Source: Thauera carbonicopians (lineage in GTDB: Bacteria > Pseudomonadota > Gammaproteobacteria > Burkholderiales > Rhodocyclaceae). From it: 64,000 nt of DNA. The DNA lies in contig NZ_JANUXN010000009.1 in assembly GCF_025699485.1 (NCBI RefSeq), positions 96,765 to 160,764 on the forward strand, read 5' to 3'. How positions within the stretch are numbered: position 1 is the first letter of the stretch; each line of letters starts with the position of its first letter. Made by a program: the position numbers and the translations under genes. The notes beneath the pieces are model-generated. The model searched no databases. It was not told where the DNA came from and saw only the letters and a program-made list of their open reading frames with translations. Below are positions 12,911 through 29,138 of the stretch, in pieces.

Positions 12911-13084
12911 GGGGCGGCAGGTGGTCGCATGCCTGTTCCCCGTTTCCACAGCCCATCCCGCGAACGGGGAGAGGCGCTGAACGGCGGCAGGTATGTCCGT
13001 GCAACAGCTTTGCTGCATTGCACCCATAGTCCGTACCGTCGGCGGGTGCGTGCTAAACTGCTGGCCGATATAAGGAATTTAACA

Positions 13085-14011
13085 ATGATCAGGCAGCGCA
13101 CCCTCAAATCCATCGTCAAGGCCACCGGCGTCGGTCTGCACGGCGGGCGCAAGGTGACGCTGGTGCTGCGTCCGGCGGCACCGGACACCGGCATCGTCTT
13201 CCACCGCGTCGATCTCGATCCGCCGCTGACCCTGCCGGCCGATCCCTACGCCGTCTGCGACACGCGGATGTGCTCGGGGCTGGAGAAGAACGGCGAGAAG
13301 GTCGGCACCGTCGAGCATCTGATGTCGGCGCTGGCCGGCCTCGGCATCGACAACCTGCACGTCGACGTCGATGCGCCCGAGATCCCCATCCTCGACGGCA
13401 GCTCCGCGCCCTTCGTGTTCCTGCTGCAGTCGGCGGGCATCGAGGAGCAGAAGGCGCCGAAGAAGTTCCTGCGCGTGAAGAAGCCGGTCGAATACCGCGA
13501 AGGCGACAAGTGGGTGCGCCTCGATCCCTACGACGGCTTCAGCCTCGAATTCTCCATCGTCTTCGACCATCCCGCGATCGACCGCACGGCGACGTCGGTC
13601 AAGGTCGATTTCGCCACCCACTCCTACATCCGCGACGTCGCCCGCGCGCGCACCTTCGGCTTCATGCAGGACGTCGAGTTCATGCAGTCCAACGGCCTCG
13701 CGCTCGGCGGCAGCCTCGACAACGCGATCGTGATGGACGAGTACCGCGTGCTCAACGCCGAGGGCCTGCGCTACGCCGACGAGTTCGTCAAGCACAAGGT
13801 GCTCGATGCCATCGGCGACCTCTACCTGTGCGGCCATCCGCTGCTGGCCTCCTATGCGGCACACAAGGCCGGCCACGCGCTGAACAACCAGATCCTGCGC
13901 GTGCTGCTCGAAGACCGCGAAGCCTGGGAAATCGTCAGCTTCGAGCAGCCCAAGGCCACGCCGCCGGCCGTCGTCCACCAGTTCGGCGACGTCCTGCCGG
14001 CCCAGGCCTGA
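13085..14011 (+). CDS. lpxC: LpxC, UDP-3-O-acyl-GlcNAc deacetylase
   Basis: LpxC is the zinc-dependent, committed step of lipid A synthesis. The start at 13085 ([21 protein letters not shown]) gives 308 residues, matching the family; a longer in-frame start at 12929 would add low-complexity sequence and is rejected. Zinc-binding and catalytic motifs are visible: [16 protein letters not shown] (His), [19 protein letters not shown] (His and Asp) and KAGHALNN (general base His). It stands alone after the dcw terminator, a common arrangement. Confidence 0.97.
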
Positions 14012-14039
14012 TGCCGGCCACGATCACGGAGCAGCGCCG

Positions 14040-14228
14040 ATGCTAATCATGCGTCTGCTGCTGTTGCTGGCGGTGCTCGGCATCGGCGGCTCGGTGATCC
14101 TGTGGCTGCTCACCGGCAATCCGCGCTACAAGCTGTGGGCGTGGAAGGCTTTCCGCATCGTCGTCGTGTTGCTGCTGGCCGTGCTGGCCTTGTTCGCCAT
14201 CGAGCGTGTGCTGGTGCCGATGATCTGA
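14040..14228 (+). CDS. Small hypothetical inner-membrane protein
   Basis: A 62-residue protein made of two hydrophobic helices (about residues 3-24 and 40-59) separated by a short basic/aromatic loop, GNPRYKLWAWKAFR. An in-frame ATG at 14049 would give 59 residues. It follows lpxC by 28 bases on the same strand and may be co-transcribed with it. No family could be named; the well-formed two-helix topology and coding-like composition support a real gene. Confidence 0.6.
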   Translation: MLIMRLLLLLAVLGIGGSVILWLLTGNPRYKLWAWKAFRIVVVLLLAVLALFAIERVLVPMI

Positions 14229-14266
14229 ACGGCCCTGGCGGCCTTGGGCCGCCACTTTCCCTGCCG

Positions 14267-14698
14267 CTACTCGCGCCCGCGCCTGACCAGGCGCTCGAGA
14301 GATTCGCGCAAGGGTGAATCCGGCGGCAGCGAGGCGGCGAATTCCGACAGACTGGCCTTGGCGTCGGCCGATATGTGACGCTCCGTCGCCGGCGGACGCC
14401 AGGCCCGCTGCTCCGGCGTCCCGACCTTGACCCTGATCGTACCCAGCGCGTGGCCGGCACGCAGGAAGTGCTCCTGCAGGCTGGGCAGCATCTGCTTGAG
14501 CCGCACTGCGGTGGCGCCGTTGCGCGTGGTGATGACCAGCACGTCGTCCTTCAGGTTGGCGACGTGGCACTGCTCGGCTAGTTGCAGGGGCAGCACGGCT
14601 TCCAGCGTGCCCTGCAGCCGCCGCAGGCGGGCGGCGTGGTCCTGCAGGCGGGCGAGGGATTCGACGCTGCCGAGAAAACGATGGAGGGGGCGGCTCAT
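14267..14698 (-). CDS. DUF721 protein, DciA-like
   Basis: The 143-residue protein starting MSRPLHRFLGSVESLARL belongs, by its order of conserved features, to the DUF721/DciA family: an N-terminal helix, the central KH-like stretch LVITTRNGATAVRLKQMLPSL, and a disordered tail ending LRESLERLVRRGRE. DciA proteins load or interact with the replicative helicase DnaB in bacteria lacking DnaC. An upstream in-frame start (14764) would run into the divergent secA promoter region and is less likely. It is transcribed away from secA. Confidence 0.65.
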   Translation of the reverse strand: MSRPLHRFLGSVESLARLQDHAARLRRLQGTLEAVLPLQLAEQCHVANLKDDVLVITTRNGATAVRLKQMLPSLQEHFLRAGHALGTIRVKVGTPEQRAWRPPATERHISADAKASLSEFAASLPPDSPLRESLERLVRRGRE

Positions 14699-14805
14699 GG
14701 GGCGTGGGAAAGAGGAATGCGGGAGGTCGTGCCGTGGTGCGCAGTGGGGCACCCTGTACGGCATGATAAACTCGCGCCTTTGCCGAATCGACGTCCACCT
14801 CCAAC

Positions 14806-17535
<2,730 letters not shown>

Positions 17536-18122
17536 CCACGGGTCGAGCGCAAGCCCTGCCGTTCATGGCGGGGTCGGCGAGACAAGCGTTCGTGGAGCCG
17601 AAGGCTTCACAAGCCCGCGGCGAGGAAGCCCCGGTTTTCAGGCTGGGGTGACTCACATGCACGAGACTGCAAGTGCGGCGGGCATGGTGTTCGCCGCCCG
17701 TAGTCCTTGATGTCGAGGCGGCTGCAGGGGCTTTGTGTCGGATTCTTTTACGTTTTCGACGCCGCCGGCTTCAATACGAAGAAAAACAAATATGAGAATC
17801 AGCGGTTTGTATGATCTGGCCTGCTGATTGCTTGACGCTCTCCATCACGATATTCCATAACTGAATTGCAAGATGGCATGAGACGGATCTGGCTTCAGGT
17901 TCGTCGGATGGCTGTGGGCGCAAGGCCCGCGCCTGCCGTCTTGTCGCCCCCATGCCCGCCCCATGCATGAGGGCGGGACGTGATGCCTTGCCCGGCGAAT
18001 TCGGTGCGATGGCTTCATGAGCTGTGCGGGGCAGGCGAGTGTGTGTCACGGCCGTGAATCTCGATTCGGGAGAGACAGATGGCGGAGCATGCTGTTCGAT
18101 CTGGCGCGATGGAAGGGCGGGC
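17536..18122 (+). other. Intergenic region between secA and the sigma-54 activator gene
   Basis: These 587 bases hold no convincing gene. The first 200 are GC-rich with a weak hairpin near 17678-17700 (GCGGCG/CGCCGC arms, no T-run) that might help end secA transcription. The stretch 17740-17880 is more AT-rich and contains the IHF-like and sigma-54 sites annotated separately. The short in-frame ORF 18024-18122 is regarded as leader sequence of the activator gene. Confidence 0.6.
17797..17832 (+). promoter_or_regulatory. Candidate sigma-54 promoter with adjacent IHF-like site
   Basis: TGGCCTGCTGATTGCT at 17817-17832 keeps the invariant GG-N10-GC spacing of sigma-54 promoters and matches TGGCAC-N5-TTGCW except at the AC pair. 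AATCAGCGGTTTG at 17797-17809 fits the IHF consensus WATCARNNNNTTR exactly. It points at the activator and barrel genes (18123-20838) and would give an autoregulated unit. The expected start of transcription is near 17843, leaving a long leader of about 280 bases. Confidence 0.5.
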
Positions 18123-19472
18123 ATGTCCGACAGGACGTGCGTAAAGGCGTCGAGGCGGGCGATCGTGCTCGACCGTACTGGCTATGCCATAGCCGAGCTC
18201 GAAGCGCTTCACCTGTCCGGCTGGATGTTCCAGCGAGTGGCGACGATGGATGCCGCACGCAAGGCCCTGAGTTGCGATCCGCCACCGATCGGCCTCGTGG
18301 CCTTCGATTCCGGGCGGCCCTGGTCCCTCGGTGAGCTGGAGAGCGTGCTCCGGCGCCCCGACATCGAATGGATCGCGCTGCTCGGCCCGGATCTGCTGAA
18401 CAGCGACCGACTGGAGCCGGAGCTGCTGCGCAGTTTCCATGATTTCCACTCCCGGCCCCTGGACAGGGAGCGGCTGTCGTGCACGCTGGGCCATGCCCAT
18501 GGCAAGGTCGAGCTGTGCCGGCATGCCTTGGCACCCCGCCGCGAGTGCGGCGCATACGGCATGACGGGGACGAGCTCCGGAATGCGCCAGCTGTATCGTC
18601 AGATCGACAAGATCCTGACGGTCGATGCACCGGTACTGATCGGTGGCGAATCCGGCACCGGCAAGGAGCTGGTTGCGCATGCCATTCATCAGTATTCGGT
18701 GCGCGCACGGGGGCCCTTCATCGCCATGAACTGCGGGGCGATCGCGCCCAGCCTGATCCAGTCCGAACTGTTCGGCCACGAGCGGGGCGCGTTCACCGGT
18801 GCCGCCCAGCGCAAGATCGGCAACATCGAGGCGGCCAACGGCGGGATTCTGTTTCTCGATGAGATCGGCGATCTGCCGCTGGAAATGCAGGCGAATCTGC
18901 TGCGTTTCCTGCAGGAGAAATGCATCACCCGGGTCGGTTCGACCGAGCGGGTGAAAGTCGATGTCCGGGTCATCGCGGCGACGCATGTCGACCTGGTGCG
19001 CGCGGTCACCCAAGGCCGTTTCCGCGAGGATCTGTACTATCGCCTCAATGTCCTGCATCTCGGGCTGCCCGCCTTGCGCGAACGACGCGAGGACATTCCC
19101 CTGCTTGCCGAGTGCATCTTCGCCGAGCACCGGGAGCAGGCGGCTCCCCAGGTGCGCGGCTTCAGCAGCGTGGCACTCCAGGCCATGATGCGCTACGACT
19201 GGCCCGGCAACGTCAGAGAGCTGGTCAACCGGGTTCAGCGCGCGATGATCATGACCGAGAGCCGCCTGATCGGTCCAACCGACCTCGGGCTGTCGTCGGA
19301 ACCGGAGCAGGGCATGCCGACCCTGGACGAAATCCGTACCAGGGTCGAGCGCGAACTGATCGAAACCAGCCTGAAGACGCACGGCAACAACGTTTCGGAG
19401 ACGGCTCGCCGTCTGGGTATTTCCCGGGTCACCTTGTACCGCATGATCGACCGTCTGAAGATCGTCCTCTAG
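18123..19472 (+). CDS. Sigma-54-dependent transcriptional activator, VpsR-like
   Basis: An enhancer-binding protein of 449 residues. The N-terminal 120 residues resemble a degenerate receiver as in VpsR-type regulators, with no clear phosphoacceptor pocket. The AAA+ domain has Walker A GESGTGKE (near residue 178), the sigma-54 contact loop GAFTGA, Walker B GGILFLDEIGD and the arginine region FREDLYYRLNV. The C-terminus is a Fis-type HTH (NNVSETARRLGISRVTLYRMI). ATG 18123 is preceded by GGAAGGG; a longer start at 18024 is possible. It sits 52 bases before an outer-membrane barrel gene and faces a sigma-54-promoted secretion operon, so it most likely controls that cluster. VpsR homologues often sense c-di-GMP; that is inference here. 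Confidence 0.85.
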   Translation: MSDRTCVKASRRAIVLDRTGYAIAELEALHLSGWMFQRVATMDAARKALSCDPPPIGLVAFDSGRPWSLGELESVLRRPDIEWIALLGPDLLNSDRLEPELLRSFHDFHSRPLDRERLSCTLGHAHGKVELCRHALAPRRECGAYGMTGTSSGMRQLYRQIDKILTVDAPVLIGGESGTGKELVAHAIHQYSVRARGPFIAMNCGAIAPSLIQSELFGHERGAFTGAAQRKIGNIEAANGGILFLDEIGDLPLEMQANLLRFLQEKCITRVGSTERVKVDVRVIAATHVDLVRAVTQGRFREDLYYRLNVLHLGLPALRERREDIPLLAECIFAEHREQAAPQVRGFSSVALQAMMRYDWPGNVRELVNRVQRAMIMTESRLIGPTDLGLSSEPEQGMPTLDEIRTRVERELIETSLKTHGNNVSETARRLGISRVTLYRMIDRLKIVL

Positions 19473-19524
19473 CCGGCCCGTGGGCGGAGGTCTCGACGCA
19501 GTAGTTTTACTGGGAGCAACTGCG

Positions 19525-20838
19525 ATGAAGAAGACACAGTCGTACCGAAGCAGATTTGCCCGTCCACTTCTCGGCGTGCTCGTCGCTGTGCTGGGGCAGC
19601 CGGTGCTTGCCGAGGATGCGGAAGAGGACGTCGGCAGCATCGCCGAGCGCTTCGAAGCCCAACTCCAGCAGATCGAGATCCTGAAGCGCGAACTGGCCAG
19701 GCAGGAGGCGGCACTCAAGGCCTTGCGCCGGGAAGTCGATCTGCGGCAGCGAGCTCGAGGGCAGGATGGGGCCCCTGCCCGGGCGGCGCCGATTGCCGTC
19801 GCCCAGGCGGATGCAGCACCAGTGGAGCCTGTCGGACAAGCGCCGGAGGCGCCCGAGCGGCCGCCGGAGGTCGCGCCCATCTTCGAGCAGCCCGGAGTGC
19901 TGACACCGCCCGGAAAGTGGATCGTCGAGCCCTCGTTGCAGTACTCGTACTCGTCCAGCGACAGGATCGCCCTGGTCGGCTACACGATCATTCCGGCGAT
20001 CCTGATCGGCTTGATCGACGTGCGCAACGTCAAATCGAACTCCTTCACGGCGACGCTTTCGGTGCGCCGGGGCATCACCAACCGTTTCGAGCTCGAGGCG
20101 CGTATTCCATATGTTTACCGCTACGACAATACGCGCGGACGGGAGATCCTGGATCCCGAACGGGTACGCGAGTTCTATTCCGATCAGAAAGGGCAGGGGA
20201 TCGGTGACGTCGAACTGATCGGTCGCTACCAGCTCAACGACGGCGGCAGCGATTCGCCGTATTACATCGCTTCGCTGCGCTTCAAGGCCCGCACCGGCAA
20301 GGATCCCTTCGAGGTGCCGACCAGCCTGACGGTCGACCCGTCCGACCCGAATACCGGCGCGAGGACGGGCATGCAGCGTGATCTGCCGACCGGCTCCGGC
20401 TTCTACTCGCTGACACCCGGGCTGACCGTGCTCATTCCGTCCGACCCGGCCGTTTTTTTTGGCGGGATCAGCTATCAGTACAGCTTCAAGCGCAAGAACG
20501 TGACGCCGAACCTGGTCGGCGATGTCGATCCGGCCGATTATGCCTATTCCTCGATCCAGCCCGGCGGCGTGCTCGGCTTCAACTTCGGCATGGGGCTGGC
20601 ACTGAACGAACGTTCGTCGTTCAGCATCGGTTACGACCATCTGTCGGTCGGCAAGACCGACGCCAGGTATGCCGACGGCCAGCGTGCCGAAGGCGTGCGC
20701 GTCCAGCTCGGCACGCTACTGCTGGGTTATTCCTACAAGCTCGATTCGATGCGGACCGTCAATCTGTCGCTCGGCGTCGGCGTCACACGCGACACGCCCG
20801 ACGTGCAGATGACGCTGCGCATGCCTTTCTCGCTGTAG
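19525..20838 (+). CDS. Outer-membrane beta-barrel protein with N-terminal coiled coil, FapF-like
   Basis: A 437-residue exported protein. A Sec signal peptide ends near residue 32 (GQPVLAED). Residues about 38-75 form a heptad-rich coiled coil (IAERFEAQLQQIEILKREL...), followed by an Ala/Pro linker to about residue 125. The rest is alternating amphipathic strands (WIVEPSLQYSYSSSD... to the terminal MTLRMPFSL) typical of a barrel ending in an aromatic/leucine residue. This coiled coil-linker-barrel order is that of FapF, the trimeric amyloid secretion pore of Pseudomonas, and of phenol-pathway MetA-like barrels. The start at 19525 with GGGAG upstream is preferred over 19480. It is probably co-transcribed with the activator gene. 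Confidence 0.7.
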   Translation: MKKTQSYRSRFARPLLGVLVAVLGQPVLAEDAEEDVGSIAERFEAQLQQIEILKRELARQEAALKALRREVDLRQRARGQDGAPARAAPIAVAQADAAPVEPVGQAPEAPERPPEVAPIFEQPGVLTPPGKWIVEPSLQYSYSSSDRIALVGYTIIPAILIGLIDVRNVKSNSFTATLSVRRGITNRFELEARIPYVYRYDNTRGREILDPERVREFYSDQKGQGIGDVELIGRYQLNDGGSDSPYYIASLRFKARTGKDPFEVPTSLTVDPSDPNTGARTGMQRDLPTGSGFYSLTPGLTVLIPSDPAVFFGGISYQYSFKRKNVTPNLVGDVDPADYAYSSIQPGGVLGFNFGMGLALNERSSFSIGYDHLSVGKTDARYADGQRAEGVRVQLGTLLLGYSYKLDSMRTVNLSLGVGVTRDTPDVQMTLRMPFSL

Positions 20839-20850
20839 GGCGCAAGCGAA

Positions 20851-20883
20851 ACGGGCCGGCTCATCGGGCATGAGCCGGCCCGT
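20851..20883. terminator. Bidirectional hairpin between convergent operons
   Basis: Perfect 14-bp stem with arms ACGGGCCGGCTCAT (20851-20864) and its complement (20870-20883), five-base loop, 12 bases after the barrel-gene stop and 50 bases after the end of the minus-strand operon. On the minus strand the stem is followed by TTCGCTT. Confidence 0.7.
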
Positions 20884-20932
20884 GCTGCAGCCGGCAGGGC
20901 AAGCCTCGTCCGGTCGGCCTGGAACGGCGAAA

Positions 20933-21499
20933 TCAGCGCATCTGCGCCGCGCGCGTCACGGCTTCCTGCATCGCCTGCTCCATGCGCACGCCCTGCATGA
21001 CTTCCAGGCTATTGACCGTTGCGCTGATCGTCGTGATGGTCTGCAGCTTCTGGTTGTCGAGCGAATTCTGGACGATCGTGGCAAGCGAGTTGGCCGGTAG
21101 AAGGTGTGAAATGTTGTTCGGCCCGCTCTGTATCAATGCCAGAGCGCTGCCGGGCGACAGGGGGATGCCGGCGGCGGACTGGCCGCCAGCCGGATTCGGG
21201 CCGTCCAGGCGCAGGCTCGTGGTGCTGTGCAGGACGCCGTTGATCAGCACGACGCGTTCGATGCCGAAACGCATCTGCAGGCCGCCGGGGGTTTCGAAGC
21301 CGCCGCGCAGGGTGTCGAGGCGGGCGTCGGCGATCGTCGCCGCGGCCAGCAGATGATCCAGCCGGTCCTGCCGCGCCGTTGCCCCCGTTTCGGCGAAATC
21401 CGCTCCGCTGGCGGGCTGGCTCGCCGCGTACGCGCACAGGCCGGCAGCGATCATGGCCAGCAGGGGCGTTCGTGTGTGGTGGAGGGGCCGGCTGGGCAT
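20933..21499 (-). CDS. Exported protein of the Gly-rich fibre operon (FapE-like position)
   Basis: A 188-residue protein with a signal peptide (cleavage probably near residue 33, PASGADF). The central part (MRFGIERVVLINGVLHSTTSLRL) predicts beta structure; the C-terminal third, NSLATIVQNSLDNQKLQ..., has Asn/Gln/Thr-rich spacing that loosely recalls the QN-rich ends of the two other exported operon proteins. It ends in a helix (MEQAMQEAVTRAAQMR). It is the last gene of the operon, 17 bases after the C39 peptidase, with an ACGGAG ribosome-binding site. No family could be named with confidence; the role as a fibre subunit or export factor is inferred from context. Confidence 0.6.
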   Translation of the reverse strand: MPSRPLHHTRTPLLAMIAAGLCAYAASQPASGADFAETGATARQDRLDHLLAAATIADARLDTLRGGFETPGGLQMRFGIERVVLINGVLHSTTSLRLDGPNPAGGQSAAGIPLSPGSALALIQSGPNNISHLLPANSLATIVQNSLDNQKLQTITTISATVNSLEVMQGVRMEQAMQEAVTRAAQMR

Positions 21500-21516
21500 G
21501 GTGTGTGCTCCGTCGC

Positions 21517-22215
21517 TCAGAAATCCACCATGCTGGGCCGGGTCAGGCTGTGTCGCACGATGTTGTCCTGATGGGAGCGCACCGGAGCGTGCGGCCGGAC
21601 GCTCCAGTCGTCTGCGTGGTTGAAGCGCGCCAGCTCCATGTGACTGGTCACGACCAGCAGGATGCCGTTGGTCCAGTGGCGCTCGAAGTCGGTGCGTGCG
21701 ACCACGCGCGTACCCATCGCCGGATCGCCGAGCAGGACGTCGCCGTCGCGCACGCCCTTGATGACGACGAAGTGGGCGTAGCCGTTTTCGTTGATCAGGG
21801 CAATCGCGGGAATGCCCACGCCGGCGAGCTCGTCCAGGCTCGCCTCGACGCCATTGGTTTCGAAGCCGCGGCTGTCGAGATAGCGCTTCATGTCCAGCAT
21901 CGAGAAGCCGTCGTGGCGGATCTTCTCCTGGTCGCCGTGCTCGAACATGACCTGGAAGACGGACGATTCATCGACCTCCCAGCCGTAGTGATGCGTCAGC
22001 AGCGTGGCAACGGCCGCCGAGCCGCAACTGAAATCGTATTGCTGGCGAAGCGTCGCGAGAAAGCGGTTGCCCTTCATGCTCACGGTGGGGACCGAAAGCG
22101 TCCCGCCCAGCGGTGCCGTCATCTGCAGGCGTTCGGCATGAGCAGCGGTGCCACCGAGCAGAACCGCCAGCATCGCGCAGGGCATCAGAGTATGGCGCAG
22201 GGAGCCGGCGAACAT
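21517..22215 (-). CDS. Exported C39-family cysteine peptidase (FapD-like)
   Basis: A 232-residue stand-alone papain-like C39 peptidase domain with an N-terminal signal peptide (about 28 residues, GGTAAHAERL) and no ABC-transporter part, so it should act in the periplasm. The catalytic set is visible: the oxyanion Gln and Cys in QQYDFSCGSAAVATLL near residue 62, His in GYAHFVVIKGV, and Asp in LLGDPAMGTR. In fap amyloid operons the FapD protein is such a C39 domain; elsewhere C39 domains cut double-glycine leaders. The natural substrate here would be one of the co-transcribed exported proteins. It lies 11 bases after the 119-residue gene. Confidence 0.85.
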   Translation of the reverse strand: MFAGSLRHTLMPCAMLAVLLGGTAAHAERLQMTAPLGGTLSVPTVSMKGNRFLATLRQQYDFSCGSAAVATLLTHHYGWEVDESSVFQVMFEHGDQEKIRHDGFSMLDMKRYLDSRGFETNGVEASLDELAGVGIPAIALINENGYAHFVVIKGVRDGDVLLGDPAMGTRVVARTDFERHWTNGILLVVTSHMELARFNHADDWSVRPHAPVRSHQDNIVRHSLTRPSMVDF

Positions 22216-22226
22216 GGCAGCGGACC

Positions 22227-22586
22227 TCACTGCACCTGGACGTTGAGGATCACGGCGTTCTGGATCAGCACGCCGTTGCCCGAATTCTGGATCACCATGG
22301 GCAGTCCGGCTGCGCCTGCGAGCGCATTGTCGGACACGATGTTGTGGCCGGTGACGAGGTCGTACGCTTGAACTTCGCTGACCGCACCCGAAGCGTGAAT
22401 TTCGCTCAGATGCACGTCGCTGCCGCCGCGCTGGGTATCCAGCACTTCCGTATCGATGATCCGTCCGAAGCCGGTCAGCGATGCAGGTGAACCCTCGGGT
22501 TCGCTGGCGTGCGCGCTGTCTGGCGCAGAGCATGAGAAGGCCAGGGCGATTCCTAGTGCGACCATGATTTGCAAAGCGGATTGCAT
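22227..22586 (-). CDS. Small exported protein sharing a QN-rich C-terminal motif with the Gly-rich protein
   Basis: A 119-residue protein with a signal peptide (cleavage probably after AHA near residue 27) and GGAGGGG before the ATG. Its C-terminal 40 residues, including ALAGAAGLPMVIQNSGNGVL and ending ILNVQVQ, align with the end of the large Gly-rich protein encoded upstream (ALANSAGITVAAQNTGIGAL...). The shared pattern suggests two members of one secreted family, perhaps minor and major fibre subunits. It contains no cysteine after the signal peptide. It resembles nothing I can name; FapA- or FapB-like roles are only a guess. Confidence 0.65.
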   Translation of the reverse strand: MQSALQIMVALGIALAFSCSAPDSAHASEPEGSPASLTGFGRIIDTEVLDTQRGGSDVHLSEIHASGAVSEVQAYDLVTGHNIVSDNALAGAAGLPMVIQNSGNGVLIQNAVILNVQVQ

Positions 22587-22652
22587 GATGCTGCCCCTCC
22601 ATGAAGTGTGCAGCAGGGCTTGGCAGCGATGCCGCCGCCAAGCCCCTCTCGC

Positions 22653-24440
22653 TTACCGCAGCGTCATGTTCGCCTGCACATTGACGCTCTGTTGCACCAG
22701 CGCACCGATGCCCGTGTTCTGGGCTGCGACGGTGATGCCCGCAGAGTTGGCAAGGGCGCTGCCCGCGATGGTGTTGGACATGTCGAACGTCCCCGCATTG
22801 ACTGCCACGGAACCGCCTGCGCCGCCGGATCCACCGGTGCCCCCCACGCCCGAACCACCGGTGCCGGCACCGGCATAGGCCGCACCGCCTGCACCGCCTG
22901 CGCCGCCCTGGCCGCCCTGGCCGGAGCCGCCTGCGCCGCCGGCAGCAGCCGTGGCCGCACCGCCGCTCGCATCTCCGCTCGACGCAGTGCTGGTGGCATC
23001 GCCGCCAGTGCCGCTACCTGCGGTCGCCGTGCCGCCGGCCGCCGTGCCGCCTGCGCCGCCGCTGGCCGAACCGGCGTTCGCGGTGCCACTGGTCGCCGTG
23101 CCGCCATTGCCGCCGTAGCCGGCAGTATTGGTGGCCGAGCCTGCCTGACCGCCATTGGCCGCGCTGTTGCCGGCCGCCGCGCTGGCGCCGCCGGAGCTGC
23201 CTGCACCGCCCGTGCCGCTGCCCTCGCCTCCGGCCACCGAGACTGCCCCGGTCATGCCGCCAGAGGAGGTGGCACTGCCACCTGCGCCGCCAGCTCCACC
23301 CGCGGCGCTGGGGCTGTTCGAGGCATTGGCTGCATCGTTGCCGCGGCCATTCGCCCCGGCCGTGGCCGAGCCAGCCTTGGCGAAGCTGCCGGCACCGTCG
23401 GCGCTGCCTCCGCTTGCGCCGCTGCCGCCTGCCGAGCTACCGCCTCTGGCGCCGCCGCCGGCGCCGAAGGCTCCGCCGCCACTGGCGCTGTCGTACGCCT
23501 TGGCACCGCCGCCGCTCGAGCTGGCGTCGCCACCGCCGCCTGCCAGCGCGCCCATGGCGCCACCACCGTCGCCGCCATTGGCACCACGGGCGCCGCCGCT
23601 GCCCGCATCACCACCGATGCCTGTGCCGCCGCCGCCAGCGATGGCCGAACCGTTGCGTGCACCGCCGCCGCTGCTCATGCCTCCAGCGGACAGGGAATCC
23701 GAATCGCCGCCGATGGCATTTCCACCGTATGCGCTGCCGCCAGCGGCGCCGCTGCCGCCGTTGCCGCCGAAGGCCTTGCCACCGTCACCGCCGGCTGCAC
23801 CCTTGGCATTGCCGCCCAGGCCCACGCCACCATTGCCGCCGTAGGCCTTGCCGCCGTTGCCGCCATTGGCGCTGCCGAGGTTGCCGGCGCTGTTGCCGAG
23901 GCCATGCACGCTGATTCGGGTCACCGTGCCGTCGAGCCTGGACAGCGCTACGACCGAGGTCCTGTTGAAGGAGTCGGCCAGATTCGATGTCGCATTGCCG
24001 ATGCCTGCCGCGGCCGAACCGGCGGCGTTGGCCGCCGCCCTGGCAGACGTGTCGCTTCTGCTCAGATTGGTGCTCTTGCTGCTGCTCTTCGAGATCGAGG
24101 TCGTACTGTTGTCGGACTTGTCGATCGAGGTCGTGCTGTTGTCGGATCTGTCGATCGACGTGTTTCTCACTCGATTGTCCGACTGATCCCTGCTGTCCGC
24201 ATTGCTGATCGAGACGTTCTTGACTCGATTGTCGGAGTTGTTGCTGTTGTCGGTCGACCATGTGGCACTCGAGTACTCGTTGGCGAGTGCGCCAGTGCCA
24301 CCGCTCTGGTTCGAATGTGCCTCGGCGTTCTGCTGTACGTCGCCGTCGTGTTGCGCCAGGTTGTTGGTGGGGTTCGCCATGGCTGGCGAGGAAAGACCGA
24401 ATGCGAGAGCAATCGCGCTTGCGAGCAGACTGTGTTTCAT
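22653..24440 (-). CDS. Large Gly/Ala-rich secreted repeat protein (candidate fibre subunit)
   Basis: A 595-residue exported protein. A Sec signal peptide ends at PAMA-NP (near residue 22). Residues 23-150 are Asn/Ser/Asp/Thr-rich with short repeats (SDNRVKNVSI, SDNRVRNTSI, DNSTTSIDKS). Residues about 195-540 are almost entirely Gly, Ala, Ser, Asn and Thr with GGxGG and GGNGGKAYGG units, and the last 45 residues carry a QNTGIGALVQQSV motif. It has no cysteine and few aromatics. Such composition suits an extended beta-roll or polyproline-II-like fibre, like PGRS or amyloid matrix proteins. ATG 24440 has a GGAGG site five bases upstream and a strong sigma-54 promoter at 24504-24519. It is the first gene of the operon. 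Confidence 0.8.
   Translation of the reverse strand: MKHSLLASAIALAFGLSSPAMANPTNNLAQHDGDVQQNAEAHSNQSGGTGALANEYSSATWSTDNSNNSDNRVKNVSISNADSRDQSDNRVRNTSIDRSDNSTTSIDKSDNSTTSISKSSSKSTNLSRSDTSARAAANAAGSAAAGIGNATSNLADSFNRTSVVALSRLDGTVTRISVHGLGNSAGNLGSANGGNGGKAYGGNGGVGLGGNAKGAAGGDGGKAFGGNGGSGAAGGSAYGGNAIGGDSDSLSAGGMSSGGGARNGSAIAGGGGTGIGGDAGSGGARGANGGDGGGAMGALAGGGGDASSSGGGAKAYDSASGGGAFGAGGGARGGSSAGGSGASGGSADGAGSFAKAGSATAGANGRGNDAANASNSPSAAGGAGGAGGSATSSGGMTGAVSVAGGEGSGTGGAGSSGGASAAAGNSAANGGQAGSATNTAGYGGNGGTATSGTANAGSASGGAGGTAAGGTATAGSGTGGDATSTASSGDASGGAATAAAGGAGGSGQGGQGGAGGAGGAAYAGAGTGGSGVGGTGGSGGAGGSVAVNAGTFDMSNTIAGSALANSAGITVAAQNTGIGALVQQSVNVQANMTLR
24091..24160. repeat. 30-bp tandem repeat inside the Gly-rich protein gene
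   Basis: Two adjacent 30-base units (24091-24120 and 24121-24150) differ at four positions and are followed by the first eight to nine bases of a third. They encode the ten-residue DNSTTSI-x-KS repeats of the Ser/Thr-rich N-terminal region. Confidence 0.85.
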
Positions 24441-24863
24441 GGCGTCCTCCACTGGTTGTCGGCAGGGCCCGTGCATGATGCAGAACCCCTGCAGAGTGGC
24501 GTCAGCAAACGCTGTGCCAGGCATGCCAAAGTGGCTGGATGCGAGATGTACGGAGTTGTTTCGGCGAACGGGCGGTGCAGGTGAGAAGCCTGCGGGAGGG
24601 GCCGATTGTCCATTTTCTGTACAGCGGTGCCGGACGGTGCCGCATGGTCCGGCCGCCGGAACGCGTGTCGTGGCGCGGCTTGTCGCTTTGAAAGGGGCGA
24701 AAGGGCCGGAGTCCGTTGCTGTAACGCTGGTGATACACGTCAGGGATATCGCCCTGGCCCTGCGTGCCAGGCTGCGACAGCGTCGATGAAGGGCTGATCC
24801 GCTATCATTCGACCTTATTTCGCGTCGGGCACCTCTGCCCGGCAAGCCTGCAAGGAGCCTCGC
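24441..24863. other. Divergent control region between the Gly-rich operon and argJ
   Basis: These 423 bases contain no credible gene. The sigma-54 promoter for the minus-strand operon is at 24504-24519. The stretch 24520-24800, upstream of that promoter, is where enhancer sites for the activator would be expected, but no clear repeated palindrome was found by eye. The end nearest argJ has an AAGGAG ribosome-binding site before its GTG. Confidence 0.6.
24504..24519 (-). promoter_or_regulatory. Sigma-54 promoter of the Gly-rich secretion operon
   Basis: Read on the minus strand the sequence is TGGCACAGCGTTTGCT, which matches TGGCAC-N5-TTGCW at every defined position. It lies 64 bases before the ATG of the Gly-rich gene, placing transcription start near 24492 with a leader of about 50 bases. 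A sigma-54 activator gene lies in the same cluster. Confidence 0.85.
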
Positions 24864-26102
24864 GTGGCCGTCAATCTGAATACTCCGAATCCCGTCGATC
24901 TGCTGCCGGTTGCCGGCGTCCGTCTGGGTGTTGCCGAAGCCGGCATCCGCAAGGCCGCCCGCCGCGACCTGACCGTGATCGAACTCGCCGAAGGCAGCCG
25001 CGCGGCGGGCGTGTTCACCCGCAACCGCTTCTGCGCGGCCCCGGTGCAGGTGTGCCGTGAACATCTGCCATCCGGGGCGATCCGGGCGATGGTGATCAAC
25101 ACCGGCAACGCCAATGCCGGTACCGGCGAGCCCGGCCTGGCCGCGGCGCGCAGTACCTGCGCGGCGCTGGCGAAGGAAATGAACATCGCTGCCGGGCAGG
25201 TGCTGCCGTTCTCGACCGGCGTGATCCTGGAGCCGCTGCCGGTCGACCGGCTGATCGCCGCCCTGCCGCGCGCGATCGCCGATCTGCGGACCGACGGCTG
25301 GTTCGATGCCGCGCACGCGATCATGACCACCGACACGCTGGCCAAGGCGGTGTCGAAGCAGGTGCAGATCGGCGGCAGCACTGTGACGCTGACCGGCATC
25401 AGCAAGGGCGCCGGCATGATCCGGCCGAACATGGCGACGATGCTCGGCTTCCTCGCCTGCGACGCCGCCGTCGCCCAGCCGGTGCTCGATGCGCTGATCC
25501 GGGAAGCGGCCGATCTGTCCTTCAACAGCATCACAGTCGATGGCGACACTTCGACCAACGATTCCTTCATCCTGATCGCCACCGGCCGGGCCGGCAACGC
25601 CGAAATCACCGCCGCCAGCGGCGCCGACTACCAGGCGCTGCGCGATGCGGTAGTCGAGGTGTCGATCGCGCTGGCGCAGGCCATCGTGCGCGACGGCGAG
25701 GGCGCGACCAAGTTCATGACGGTCGCGGTCGAAGGCGGCCGTGATCGCGACGAGTGCCGCAAGGTCGGCTATGCGGTGGCGCATTCGCCGCTGGTGAAGA
25801 CGGCCTTCTTTGCCTCGGATCCCAACCTCGGCCGCATCCTGGCTGCGATCGGCTATGCCGGCATCGACGACCTGGAGGTGTCGAAGCTGCGCGTGTGGCT
25901 CGGCAATCCGGACGAAGCCGTGCTGGTCGCCGAGCACGGCGGCCGGGCGGCGTCCTACGTCGAAGAGGCGGGCGCGCGCATCATGGAGCACGCCGAACTG
26001 TCGGTGCGCATCGACCTCGCTCGCGGCCAGGCTGCCGCGACGGTGTGGACCTGCGACTTCTCGTACGACTACGTCAGGATCAACGCGGATTACCGTTCCT
26101 GA
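24864..26102 (+). CDS. argJ: ArgJ, bifunctional ornithine/glutamate N-acetyltransferase
   Basis: ArgJ recycles the acetyl group from N-acetylornithine to glutamate (and, if bifunctional, also uses acetyl-CoA) in arginine synthesis. The 412-residue precursor shows the self-cleavage site in [16 protein letters not shown] near residue 190, where the Thr of ATML becomes the catalytic nucleophile of the beta chain. Other family motifs are [12 protein letters not shown] and [13 protein letters not shown]. The start is a GTG at 24864 preceded by AAGGAG. It is monocistronic here. Confidence 0.96.
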
Positions 26103-26311
26103 GATCCCGCTGGAGTGGGCGGGGGCCGCGCAGCCAGCGAAACGGAACCCGTCGATCGCGCTGGTCTGCCTCGATGAGGCGGGTTTCGCCTGCGGCGCTG
26201 TCTCCGCGGCCCGGCCCACGCTGCCGGCTGCGGCTCGCAGCGTGAGCCGCGCGGCGATTTCCTTGGCGGCCCCGGCAGCACCGGCGCCGACGATGCCGAG
26301 GGCATTGGCTC

Positions 26312-26788
26312 CTATTCCCGTGCGATCTCCTGCTCGAAAACGACCGCCGCCTGGCGTGCCACTCGCGCGACATCGAGGCTGAGCGCGAGTCCCGATTCAT
26401 CCAGCTCGTCGAGTTCGAACCACCTTGCTTCGAGTGCGTCGTCTCCGGCGATCGGCTGGCCCGACCGCCACTTGCACAGCACTGCAATCAGGATGAAGTG
26501 CCGGCGCAGCCCGCCGCCGTCATCGCGGTCGAAGACATCGACCGCGGTGAAGACCCGATGCGCTTCGGCGTGAACGCCGGTTTCTTCGAGCAGTTCGCGG
26601 ACCGCCGCATTCTCGATCGTTTCTCCGGCGTCGATCTTGCCGCCCGGGAAACCCCAGCGTCCGGCATCGGGCGGATTGGCTCGCCGCACCAGGAGTATGC
26701 GGCCGTCGAGAAACACGGCGGCGATGGTCGCTGCGATCGGCCGGAGCGGCGGCTCGGCGGGATGTGAAGGGGAGGTTCTTTCCGGCAT
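26312..26788 (-). CDS. Nudix hydrolase, MutT-like
   Basis: A 158-residue Nudix-fold protein with the complete Nudix box GGKIDAGETIENAAVRELLEETGV spread over residues about 47-70 (G-x5-E-x7-REL-x2-EE-x-G). MutT-type members clean oxidised nucleotides such as 8-oxo-dGTP, but the substrate cannot be read from sequence. The start ATG at 26788 (MPERTSPSHP) fits; a longer frame upstream lacks support. It is convergent with argJ; the 209 bases between them contain no clear gene. Confidence 0.85.
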   Translation of the reverse strand: MPERTSPSHPAEPPLRPIAATIAAVFLDGRILLVRRANPPDAGRWGFPGGKIDAGETIENAAVRELLEETGVHAEAHRVFTAVDVFDRDDGGGLRRHFILIAVLCKWRSGQPIAGDDALEARWFELDELDESGLALSLDVARVARQAAVVFEQEIARE

Positions 26789-26927
26789 GGCATGCTCCCG
26801 GGATGAGGCCGGCAAACAGGCGGTATTCCAGCGCCTACCTTTGCCGGCATGGAAACGATAGCTTGGGTTTCCGGCCGCAAGGCATTCGATTATGCCGGTT
26901 CCGGCCGTGCCTGGCGGCGGCAGCGAT

Positions 26928-27902
26928 TCATCCGAAGCTCGCGCAGGCATCGCGCAGGGCCGCTCGCATCGCCGGTTCGAAGGGATCGTGCCCCGCGTCG
27001 TCCACCCACGCCAGTCGGCCGCCGGGCAGGCGCCGGTGCAGCGCGAGCGCGCCTTCCGAGCGGCAGACCGCATCCCGGCGGCCGTGCAGCAGGACGATCG
27101 GCAGGCCGGCGAGCGCGGCGGCCTGGCGCTGCCATTCGCCCTCGGCCAGGAAGCAGTCGTGGCGGAGGTAGTGGGCCTGCACCCGGTATTTGTCCAGCAT
27201 ACGTGCGGCGCCTGTCTCGTCGAGTTGCGGCAGCGGCACCGGCCGGCCGCGGGTGAGACTGTCTTCCCATTGCATCCAGTGGCGGACGACGTCCAGCGCC
27301 AGGTCGTGGTCGTTCCCGAGCGCCGCGTCGCAGGTCCGTTCCGCCAGCCGCCCATTGCCCGGCACGCAGGCGGCGAGCCGGGCATGCGCCGTCGGCTGCA
27401 GCGCGGCCGCGCCGTCGAAGAACCAGTCGATGTCGCTGCGGCGGGCGAGGAAGATGCCGCGCAGTACGGCGCCGAGGCAGGCGGCGCGATGCTGCGCGCT
27501 CCAGGCTAGCGCCAGCGTCGACCCCCATGAGCCGCCGCTGACCAGCCAGCGTTCGATGCCGAGATGGCGGCGCAGGCGCTCGATGTCGGCCACCAAGCCG
27601 GTCGTGGTATTGGCGGCCAGTGCGCCGCGCGGCGTGCTGCGGCCGCAGCCGCGCTGGTCGAACATCACGATGCGGAAGCGCTTGGCGTCGAACAGGGCGG
27701 GGTGGCGCGGACTGCAGCCGCTGCCCGGGCCGCCGTGCAGGAACAGCAGCGGCGTGCCGTCCGGGTTGCCGTATTGCCCGAACCAGATCGCGTGGCCGTC
27801 GCCGACTTCCAGCATGCCCTGCTGCCAGGGCTGCGAGTGGTCTGCGAAAGAGGCTCCGGAACGGACTTCGTCGGGGGCTGGGCTGTCGTTCATGGCGGTC
27901 AT
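26928..27902 (-). CDS. pip: Proline iminopeptidase-like alpha/beta hydrolase (S33)
   Basis: A cytoplasmic serine peptidase of about 324 residues expected to release N-terminal proline from peptides. It shows the oxyanion motif HGGPGSGCSPRH, FDQRGCGRS, the nucleophile elbow GGSWGSTLAL near residue 130, the catalytic Asp in LLHGRRDAVCR and the final His in DDAGHDPFE. These match family S33 proline iminopeptidases. Starts at 27902 or 27893 are equally plausible. It is divergent from pqqA; any role in PQQ maturation is unproven. Confidence 0.85.
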   Translation of the reverse strand: MTAMNDSPAPDEVRSGASFADHSQPWQQGMLEVGDGHAIWFGQYGNPDGTPLLFLHGGPGSGCSPRHPALFDAKRFRIVMFDQRGCGRSTPRGALAANTTTGLVADIERLRRHLGIERWLVSGGSWGSTLALAWSAQHRAACLGAVLRGIFLARRSDIDWFFDGAAALQPTAHARLAACVPGNGRLAERTCDAALGNDHDLALDVVRHWMQWEDSLTRGRPVPLPQLDETGAARMLDKYRVQAHYLRHDCFLAEGEWQRQAAALAGLPIVLLHGRRDAVCRSEGALALHRRLPGGRLAWVDDAGHDPFEPAMRAALRDACASFG

Positions 27903-28090
27903 GCTACTGCTGCACGGCGAGGCCCGCGCCGGCGGCACACCAGCTTCATGAAAATCTTGAGGCCGGCTTCAGGGCTTTGCCGATGCCCGCGATCGCTGCC
28001 AGGCGCAGGCTATGCACCGTGCTCCGGACGCTTCGTCCCGCACCGCACCGGGCGAACCGGCAAACCCCCGACCACGACAGGAGACACACC

Positions 28091-28165
28091 ATGAAATGGG
28101 AAACCCCGACTGCCACCGACATGCGTTTCGGCTTCGAAATCACCATGTACATCGCGAACCGCTGA
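28091..28165 (+). CDS. pqqA: PqqA, peptide precursor of PQQ
   Basis: A 24-residue peptide, [20 protein letters not shown] followed by IANR, with Glu16 and Tyr20 in the E-x3-Y spacing that supplies all atoms of pyrroloquinoline quinone. An AGGAG ribosome-binding site lies seven bases upstream. It is the first gene of pqqABCDE and is separated from pqqB by 58 bases. Confidence 0.97.
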
Positions 28166-28223
28166 TGCCGTCGCCCGGGAGCTGCGCGGCAGCTCCCGGC
28201 CAGGCAGGGATGGAGGGCTGCAG

Positions 28224-29138
28224 GTGAAAGTACGTGTTCTCGGCTCGGCTGCCGGCGGCGGATTCCCGCAGTGGAACTGCAACTGCCGCAACTGCGACGG
28301 CCTGCGCCGCGGCAGCGTGCGTGCCCGTGCCCGCACCCAGTCGTCGATCGCGGCGAGCGGCGACGGCGAGAACTGGGTGCTGTTCAATGCCTCGCCCGAC
28401 ATCCTGCAGCAGTTGCGCGAGACGCCGGAATTGCAGCCGGCACGTTCGCTGCGCGACACCGCGATCCGCGCCATCGTGCTGATCGATGCGCAGATCGACC
28501 ATACCACCGGCCTGCTGATGCTGCGCGAGCACCGCCAGCCGCAGGTGCTGTGGTGTACCGCGCCGGTGCGCGAGGACCTGAGCACCGGCAACCCGCTGTT
28601 CGGCGTGCTCGGCCATTACTGCGGGCTGGATCTGCACGAGATTCCGCTGCAGGGCGGCTTCAGCATTCCCGAAGTGCCCGGCATCGGTTTCGCCGCGCTG
28701 CCGATCAGCAGCAATGCGCCGCCGTATTCGCCGCGGCGCGACCGGCCGCAGCCGGGCGACAACATCGGCGTCACGCTGAGTTGTACGGACAGCGGCCGCC
28801 GCCTGTTCTACGCGCCCGGCCTCGGCGAGATGACGCCCGACGTCTGGGCGGCGATGCAGGCCGCCGACTGCGTGCTGGTCGATGGCACCTTGTGGACCGA
28901 CGACGAGATGATCCGTCTCGGCGCTTCCGGCAAGACCTCACGCTCGATGGGGCACCTGCCGCAGAGCGGCCCCGGCGGCATGCTGGAGTGGCTGGAGCAA
29001 CTGCCGGCCACGACCCGCAAGATCCTGATCCACATCAACAACACCAATCCGATCCTGGACGAGGACAGTCCCGAGCGTGCCGAGCTGGATGCACGCGGCG
29101 TGGAAGTCGCCTGGGATGGCATGGTGATCGAACTCTGA
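28224..29138 (+). CDS. pqqB: PqqB, metallo-beta-lactamase-fold PQQ biosynthesis protein
   Basis: PqqB is a metallo-hydrolase-fold protein thought to hydroxylate the Glu-Tyr intermediate on the way to PQQ. The 304 residues start [19 protein letters not shown] after the initiating codon, the family hallmark, with the Cys-rich motif [10 protein letters not shown]. Other motifs are [16 protein letters not shown] and the C-terminal [13 protein letters not shown]. The ATG-like start is the GTG at 28224, with a GGAGG ribosome site upstream. Confidence 0.96.

Follow-up and report, generated by a model that had tools for sequence, protein, structure and literature searches.

We conclude that six adjacent genes of Thauera carbonicopians, carried in a 64,000-nucleotide (nt) stretch of contig NZ_JANUXN010000009.1 (referred to here as the window), constitute a new and widespread variant of the functional amyloid in Pseudomonas (Fap) kind of export system. 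The genes encode a sigma-54-dependent activator, a FapF-type outer-membrane barrel, a Gly-rich exported protein (the cargo), two small exported proteins of 119 and 188 amino acids (p119 and p188), and a C39 peptidase of the FapD type. As judged from sequence comparison, the system appears to be a sister of Fap within the FapD-FapF superfamily. It likely secretes a Gly-rich matrix or fiber through the barrel; for the peptidase we predict a cut in p188, and probably one in p119, behind an LxxxRGG leader. All six genes named by the initial annotation are present in the list of open reading frames (ORFs) and their translations, and its view that the cluster resembles Fap without being equal to it is borne out, in that there are homologues of FapF, FapD, and FapE, no detected FapC repeats, and a separate barrel clade. 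The RGG leaders and a C-terminal module shared by the cargo and p119 go beyond what had been described. In the window, the activator and barrel genes (plus strand) converge on a block of the cargo, p119, peptidase, and p188 genes (minus strand), and the block contains no further gene.

Residues 114 to 435 of the barrel match four FapF crystal-chain sequences in PDB (5o65, 5o67 twice, and 5o68) with E values of 3.6e-31 to 4e-30. The match to the NCBIfam FapF model (E value 1.3e-43; 149 bits) is below the model cut-off of 700, as are those of 10 of 10 barrels taken from classical Fap loci (318 to 506 bits), and the model has no matches in 14 control genomes. In a tree of 68 barrel rows, 44 rows of the window's kind lie on one side of a branch with a Shimodaira-Hasegawa-like approximate likelihood ratio test (SH-aLRT) value of 99. 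These are all 10 rows from the window's family, 21 of 80 loci (identified here by L numbers) from a scan of contigs, and 13 of 15 loci from a class-wide search. The rows nearest to the window barrel are those of Thauera propionica (74% identity) and T. phenolivorans, and 16 classical rows, L155, and L162 make up one 18-row group. The tree is a quick one, calculated without bootstraps and with long branches among the outgroups and L148; in it, the window barrel appears to belong to a clade of its own, apart from classical Fap.

The class-wide search covered 369 genomes, with a barrel match in 57, and 38 places from these were examined. Fifteen loci score above 285 bits against the barrel profile, and in 14 of them genes for p119 and p188 adjoin FapD (with weak p119 and p188 profile scores of 15 to 22 bits in L146 and L147); the fifteenth, L137, is a short contig carrying the barrel only. 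ORFs with FapC repeats occur at 17 loci (15 class-wide plus L023 and L024 from the window's family), and the barrel scores of these all lie between 130 and 196 bits. The other eight class-wide loci (57 to 175 bits) have neither FapC repeats nor the block; FapD is nearby in seven, and not in L155, which is at a contig end. We do not file the window's system as a member of Fap because FapC repeats were looked for in the cargo and not found and because the barrel falls in its own clade.

The peptidase matches the NCBIfam FapD model (E value 3.9e-42; 144 bits, below the cut-off of 330) and Pfam Peptidase_C39 (E value 1.3e-23), and Gln58, Cys64, His148, and Asp164 are invariant among 35 peptidases of the window's kind and 16 classical FapD proteins. 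In Pseudomonas sp. UK4, secretion required the active-site Cys of FapD, the target of which "remains unclear" in the available text of that report, and FapE alone lacked peptides from its first ~70 residues (PMC5557850). The available portion of a 2018 review states that the FapD substrate "is yet to be determined" (PMC6173800).

The leader region of p188 offers a candidate. RGGF occurs in 55 of 55 aligned rows, preceded by L or M at position -7 (55 of 55), by V, L, I, M, or A at -12 (55 of 55), and by L, M, I, or V at -4 (41 of 55), and RGG is retained in all 14 distant relatives; the alignments include 55 of 77 p188 and 54 of 73 p119 sequences. According to the accessible text of PMC6363468, leader positions -4, -7, and -12 lie in a hydrophobic groove in the LahT C39 co-crystal, and the leader consensus of ComA is L(-12)-x3-E(-8)-L(-7). 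The LxxxRGG of p188 is spaced as in these published C39 leaders, making p188 a candidate substrate of the FapD-type peptidase and RGG a candidate cut site. A profile of p188 matches 15 classical FapE sequences with an E value of 9.9e-6 over 37 columns around the leader (score of 42.7, compared to 21.2 for the best of 200 nulls), with the remainder of the proteins unaligned. Classical FapE has, roughly, LxxMRG[RK] in the corresponding position. In all 14 aligned sequences the residues are L, V, or I at -12, L or M at -7, R at -3, G at -2, R or K at -1, and Y or F at +1, whereas M, L, or I occupies -4 in 13 and E occupies -8 in 10. A set of 36 database FapE sequences all fit a looser leader pattern, with R (28), K (7), or G (1) at -1 and the invariant Gly at residues 54 to 81. 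A single FapE query yielded 3 near copies and 14 FapE queries yielded these 36, which are mostly relatives of one of the 14 queries and, where named, come from Guyparkeria and its kin, with none named Pseudomonas.

Our reading is that FapD would cut FapE after RG[RK] and that its window-type relative would cut p188 after RGG. In a tryptic digest, a new end behind Arg or Lys would resemble one made by trypsin itself, and this may be the reason that a cut in FapE escaped notice. The second residue past the catalytic Cys is Ser in 35 of 35 peptidases of the window's kind versus Ala in 15 of 16 classical FapD proteins; this difference, one among consistent differences between the groups, could accompany the change at leader position -1. 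The candidate cut sites (RGG in p188 and RG[RK] in FapE) make the question of the FapD target, which is open in the Fap papers cited here, cheaply testable.

The leader region is common to p188 and p119 (profile E value 2.2e-11). In the aligned p119 rows, L at -7 and G at -2 are invariant (54 of 54), R fills -3 in 53 of 54, -4 varies, and -1 is G (50 of 54), K (3), or R (1). RGG, counted anywhere in the ORF, is present in p119 in 66 of 72 blocks, and it occurs in 106 of the 120 database matches listed. Among the distant relatives it is kept in 2 of 14, the others having RGT, RGM, RGR, RAK, RAM, or SGR at that place. Given 14 of 14 for p188 versus 2 of 14 for p119 in these relatives, we take the candidacy of p188 as firm and confine that of p119 to the window's own relatives. 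A crude test of exported ORFs found the leader pattern in 25 of 93 near FapD versus 4 of 68 far from it (the near match L153_8453 looks false); many wrongly placed ORF starts kept its yield to 6 leaders across the 13 block loci. Both the leader and the palindrome described below were spotted in these same sequences before they were counted, and the controls, which are other places, are not independent of that.

The cargo is 27% Gly and 20% Ala overall and reaches 40.5% Gly in residues 186 to 548, and no FapC repeat was detected in it. Both of its ends are conserved: NP comes after a signal peptide at the N-terminus, and the C-terminal ~40 residues approximate N-x-I-x-x-SF-x-x-x-x-GI-x-x-x-QN-x-G-x-x-x-LVQQ. 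This module also ends p119, as found with module-only profiles (E value 1.5e-8) and in a comparison of p119 with the window cargo alone (E value 8.5e-4). When p119 was compared to the whole cargo alignment, the signal peptides were the only match, and module-only profiles were required. Gly-rich ORFs of at least 250 amino acids in the contig loci end in [LI][VI]QQ in 67 of 77 cases.

The body between the conserved ends varies freely in the window's relatives, which have one module per cargo. It is Gly-rich in these relatives and in L134, L135, and L147, falls to 17% Gly in L146, and is Asn/Ser-rich (17 to 28% Asn) in L136, L140, L141, L142, L145, and L148. The cargos of L138 and L143 consist of four tandem modules rich in Gln and Asn, and L144 (5604-7223) encodes two separate short cargo-like proteins of ~190 amino acids each, with Ser/Asn-rich bodies and the C-terminal module. 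Thus, the low-complexity body is exchanged between lineages under one machine, and Gly-richness is a cargo trait in one part of the family and not a trait of the system. That the product assembles into fibers is our inference. The possibility of a polyglycine-II body was considered and rejected, as there is no period-3 Gly signal (p 0.24; GGxGG occurs 16 times versus 9.3 in shuffles). The tandem Gln/Asn-rich modules of L138 and L143 recall curli or Fap repeats. Two Gly-rich cargo genes are in tandem in L020, L021, L025, L027, L028, L033, and L063, with a sigma-54-like site for each gene in L027 and L028 and for the first only in L020 and L021.

The activator matches Pfam Sigma54_activat (E value 2.5e-71), VpsR (8e-12), and HTH_8 (8e-12). 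The VpsR domain is present in the activators of 10 of 10 relatives, residues 27 to 388 match the VpsR structure 7v2b, and the N-terminal part alone matches VpsR structures with an E value of 6e-4. The sigma-54 promoter proposed earlier is supported: a perfect -24/-12 site lies 63 nt before the cargo start, and its position is conserved. In the whole window, the pattern at up to 2 mismatches occurs 21 times versus 33.5 expected from shuffles, with no enrichment, and we regard this site as credible because it is a perfect match at this spot and because its position is conserved in relatives. With up to 2 mismatches and GG and GC intact, 55 of 71 upstream regions (53 of 64 loci) have a site 45 to 95 nt ahead of the cargo start, compared to 54 of 4000 random windows.

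Farther upstream is a palindrome, TGTNNC-N6-GNNACA. Among 57 upstream regions with a sigma-54-like site at up to 3 mismatches, it is present without mismatch in 40 (1.2% of 3000 random windows) and with up to one mismatch in 54 (8.9% of 3000), mostly ~90 to 140 or 180 to 220 nt before the sigma-54 site. The window's copy is perfect. The activator may bind this palindrome, and cyclic di-GMP (c-di-GMP) might play a role. A sigma-54-like site with 2 mismatches also precedes the activator (17817), without a palindrome. A second perfect copy of the palindrome in the genome (G000:C44:181397-181414, L175) lacks a well-placed sigma-54 site, and a reversed control pattern also occurs once, so it is probably due to chance; the genes behind it are presumably a multiheme cytochrome and porin-like operon.

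A linked regulator does not distinguish the system from Fap. Matches to the activator profile occur near all 17 classical Fap loci (323 to 584 bits in 16, and an 81-bit fragment at a contig end in L161), counted within ~19 kb; the lower scores could be other NtrC-type activators. A linked activator thus seems common to both systems. The Pseudomonas fap operon is said in the 2018 review to encode no regulator (PMC6173800).

The gene set is widely conserved. In the window's family, 13 of 101 genomes have a barrel match. All 10 with a close barrel (the window's own genome included) have all six genes in the same convergent order, L023 and L024 are genuine Fap operons with FapC repeats, and the thirteenth match is weak and partial. 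A contig scan with the barrel profile gave the locus set used here, the best 80 of 240 relatives. Ten of these have no peptidase gene on the stretch, and the other 70 carry 73 peptidase blocks, with p119 and p188 each in 72. The conservation of the gene set that had been suggested as a check is thus found both in the family and beyond it. A Gly-rich ORF (>14% Gly, at least 150 amino acids, low in Pro and Arg, and within ~1.2 kb) is present in 65 of the 66 blocks that have more than 1.5 kb upstream, and in 64 of 66 at stricter cut-offs of >17% or >20% Gly; the block outside the 65 is L054, in which the substrate keeps both conserved ends and is 9% Gly. The initial annotation had named the occurrence of barrel and C39 genes without the Gly-rich gene as a result that would speak against it. 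Near the window the three go together; farther out, Asn/Ser-rich or tandem-module proteins often take the place of the Gly-rich one. In L084, L087, and L097 (Massilia), two complete blocks are in tandem on one strand, as if the system had been duplicated.

The system occurs in Thauera, Azoarcus, Aromatoleum, Dechloromonas, an Accumulibacter genome, Rhodoferax, Polaromonas, and Massilia; wastewater or aggregates are known habitats for several of these. The p119 profile matches at least 4,231 nonredundant proteins at an E value of ≤1e-3 (among 7,997 scored candidates); the 120 matches listed have no Pfam domain, and those with names are "hypothetical" or "uncharacterized." Many such proteins are here tied to one export system. 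We recognized no description of the system in the open-access literature, a coverage that mostly leaves out subscription papers and bioRxiv preprints, and Fap proteins are not named in the available text of the Accumulibacter secretome and granule papers searched (PMC12019908 and PMC12016536).

The system likely works like Fap. The VpsR-type activator would bind the upstream palindrome and fire the sigma-54 promoter, as suggested by the conserved sites. Signals for the general secretory (Sec) pathway, identified by eye and with a crude script, would carry the cargo, p119, the peptidase, and p188 to the periplasm, where the FapD-type peptidase would clip p188 at RGG to release its leader and would do likewise with p119 in the window's relatives. 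By analogy with the FapD-dependent secretion of FapC, leader removal may license export through the barrel. On the cell exterior, the C-terminal modules that p119 and the cargo have in common might pair or nucleate assembly, and the low-complexity body, which is exchanged between lineages, would determine the material properties. A single machine whose low-complexity cargos are exchanged in nature would be useful for learning how such bodies form materials.

Several results weigh against this reading. The structure predictions are uninformative (mean predicted local distance difference test score [pLDDT] of 36.4 for the cargo and 61.6 for p119). The cargo module is not recognizable by eye in L146 and L147. 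Eleven of 64 loci have no sigma-54 site where one is expected, with up to 2 mismatches allowed; in some of these (e.g., L032, L072, L081, and L089) the site is farther up, which suggests a misplaced cargo start. Classical FapE has Arg or Lys instead of Gly at -1, which is unusual for a C39 peptidase. Finally, cleavage of p119 is not general, as 6 of 72 blocks and 12 of 14 distant relatives have a p119 with no RGG. The last two points would also fit a peptidase that spares p188 and p119. In that case RGG would serve structure or sorting, and the peptidase would act elsewhere, for example on the linker of the barrel; the Fap authors had weighed the possibility that the FapF linker is cleaved (PMC5557850). 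We judge this unlikely, as the RGG of p188 is invariant in near and distant relatives at the spacing of a C39 leader and FapE alone lost its N-terminus in Pseudomonas sp. UK4 (available text of PMC5557850).

It is quite improbable, in our view, that this is an ordinary, diverged Fap operon in which the cargo is a FapC that drifted to low complexity, p119 is FapB, and p188 is FapE. The homology to FapF, FapD, and FapE would be expected, and several Massilia loci have the order cargo, p119, D, p188, F on one strand. Moreover, the four-module substrate of L143 scores 18.3 against the FapC repeat, just over all 200 nulls (best, 17.1), and 2 of 200 nulls are as good as the p119 module (top 1%), although over a short match of 13 columns. 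However, for the cargo's own module 84 of 200 column-permuted nulls are as good, a result that also counts against our reading, and an identity of module and FapC repeat, although the two are alike by eye, is unsupported for the cargos themselves. The barrels form a separate clade, and other members of the same family (L023 and L024) have classical Fap operons. A Gly-rich protein that is soluble, gel-like, or a surface-bound adhesin, with the module merely retaining it at the surface or barrel, is possible but not probable: the single module per cargo in the window's relatives, the freely varying body, and the lack of predicted order would agree with it, whereas the four Gln/Asn-rich modules of the L138 and L143 cargos look like polymer-forming repeats and p119 bears the same module.

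Compared to fapABCDEF, the system has a FapF-type barrel, a periplasmic C39 peptidase like FapD, a FapE-like protein whose leader occupies the same position, and, in loci with all genes on one strand, the order cargo, D, E, F. It differs in that the cargo is Gly-rich, Asn/Ser-rich, or made of tandem modules, without detected FapC repeats, that the leader ends in GG instead of GR or GK, that p119 takes the place of FapB, and that the barrel belongs to a separate clade and its gene has been moved or turned in most loci of relatives. Fap is a single operon, ABCDEF, whereas the genes in the window are convergent. The barrel on the opposite strand, given earlier as a difference from Fap, is real in the window; however, of the 73 blocks, 24 have a convergent FapF gene, 26 have it on the same strand, and 23 have it pointing away, so the strand arrangement is not a defining trait and does not distinguish the system from Fap. 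Several Massilia loci carry the whole set as a consecutive run on one strand, in the order activator, cargo, p119, D, p188, and F.

The putative pilus system of Acinetobacter known by the NCBIfam names FilB and FilC also matches the C39 peptidase (E value 7.9e-33) and the barrel (8.8e-15), but more weakly than FapD and FapF do, and no other Fil family is found at an E value of ≤1 among the six proteins. Like double-glycine export systems (ABC transporter maturation and secretion [AMS] proteins and peptidase-containing ATP-binding cassette [ABC] transporters [PCAT], including LahT and ComA), the leaders have hydrophobic residues at -12 and -7 (and in p188 mostly at -4) before GG. In contrast to those, the window peptidase is a separate protein that bears a signal peptide itself and comes without an ABC transporter, and the leader appears to lie behind a Sec signal. 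VpsR, the biofilm activator of Vibrio cholerae, has the N-terminal domain and AAA+ core in common with the window activator, which differs in being linked to protein-export genes.

A wider reading, to which we give slightly less than even weight, is that FapD-FapF is a general pair of periplasmic leader peptidase and outer-membrane exporter, the partners of which carry, past the Sec signal, C39-type leaders ending in RGG (the window's system), RG[RK] (FapE of Fap), or AG (other FapD-FapF loci), and that the self-assembling bodies, swapped among Gly-rich, Asn/Ser-rich, and tandem-module forms, represent an unnamed, widespread class of low-complexity extracellular matrix proteins. Its extension to other FapD-FapF pairs comes from few loci, the seven without Fap repeats or block. 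Exported neighbors in L164, L167, and L171 have AG-ending leaders with the same hydrophobic spacing, a neighbor in L162 has a FapE-type RGR leader, and the leader pattern was not matched in L168, L169, and L170. The retention of RGG in so few distant p119 relatives counts against this wider reading too. FapD and FapF were placed in larger families in 2013, from unspecific profile hits (PMC3792158, available text), and the 2018 review reports that homologues of fapD and fapF also lie together in five more phyla (PMC6173800). The AG leader near the FapD gene in L164, L167, and L171 (e.g., LTEAQMDQVSAG) hints at a third kind of cargo system.

Table 1. Features of the FapD-FapF-type cluster in the T. 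carbonicopians window
Feature	Position in window	Strand	Basis
Sigma-54 enhancer-binding activator with VpsR-type N-terminal domain, 449 aa (amino acids)	18123-19472	+	Pfam Sigma54_activat, VpsR, HTH_8
FapF-type outer-membrane barrel with N-terminal helical segment and linker, 437 aa	19525-20838	+	FapF crystal sequences, NCBIfam FapF
p188, FapE-like exported protein, 188 aa	20933-21499	-	Profile match to classical FapE
RGG of p188 (residues 65-67), predicted cut site after second Gly	21299-21307	-	RGGF invariant in aligned rows
FapD-type C39 peptidase with signal peptide, 232 aa	21517-22215	-	Pfam Peptidase_C39, NCBIfam FapD
p119, small exported partner, 119 aa	22227-22586	-	72 of 73 blocks, database relatives
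RGG of p119 (residues 53-55), possible cut site	22422-22430	-	Gly-Gly in 50 of 54 aligned rows
C-terminal module of p119	22230-22343	-	Profile match to C-terminal module of cargo
Gly-rich exported cargo, 595 aa	22653-24440	-	Translation; same order beside p119 in relatives
C-terminal module of cargo (residues 554-595)	22656-22781	-	Profile comparison
Sigma-54 type promoter site, 0 mismatches	24504-24519	-	Pattern scan, conserved position in relatives
Palindrome TGTATC-N6-GTTACA, proposed activator site	24720-24737	-	Pattern scan of upstream regions

A GTG at 18024 is a possible alternative start of the activator. The flanking genes (window positions 12929-17535 and 24864-29138) are ones that we take to be lpxC-, secA-, argJ-, and pqqB-like, and the cluster would thus lie between housekeeping genes.

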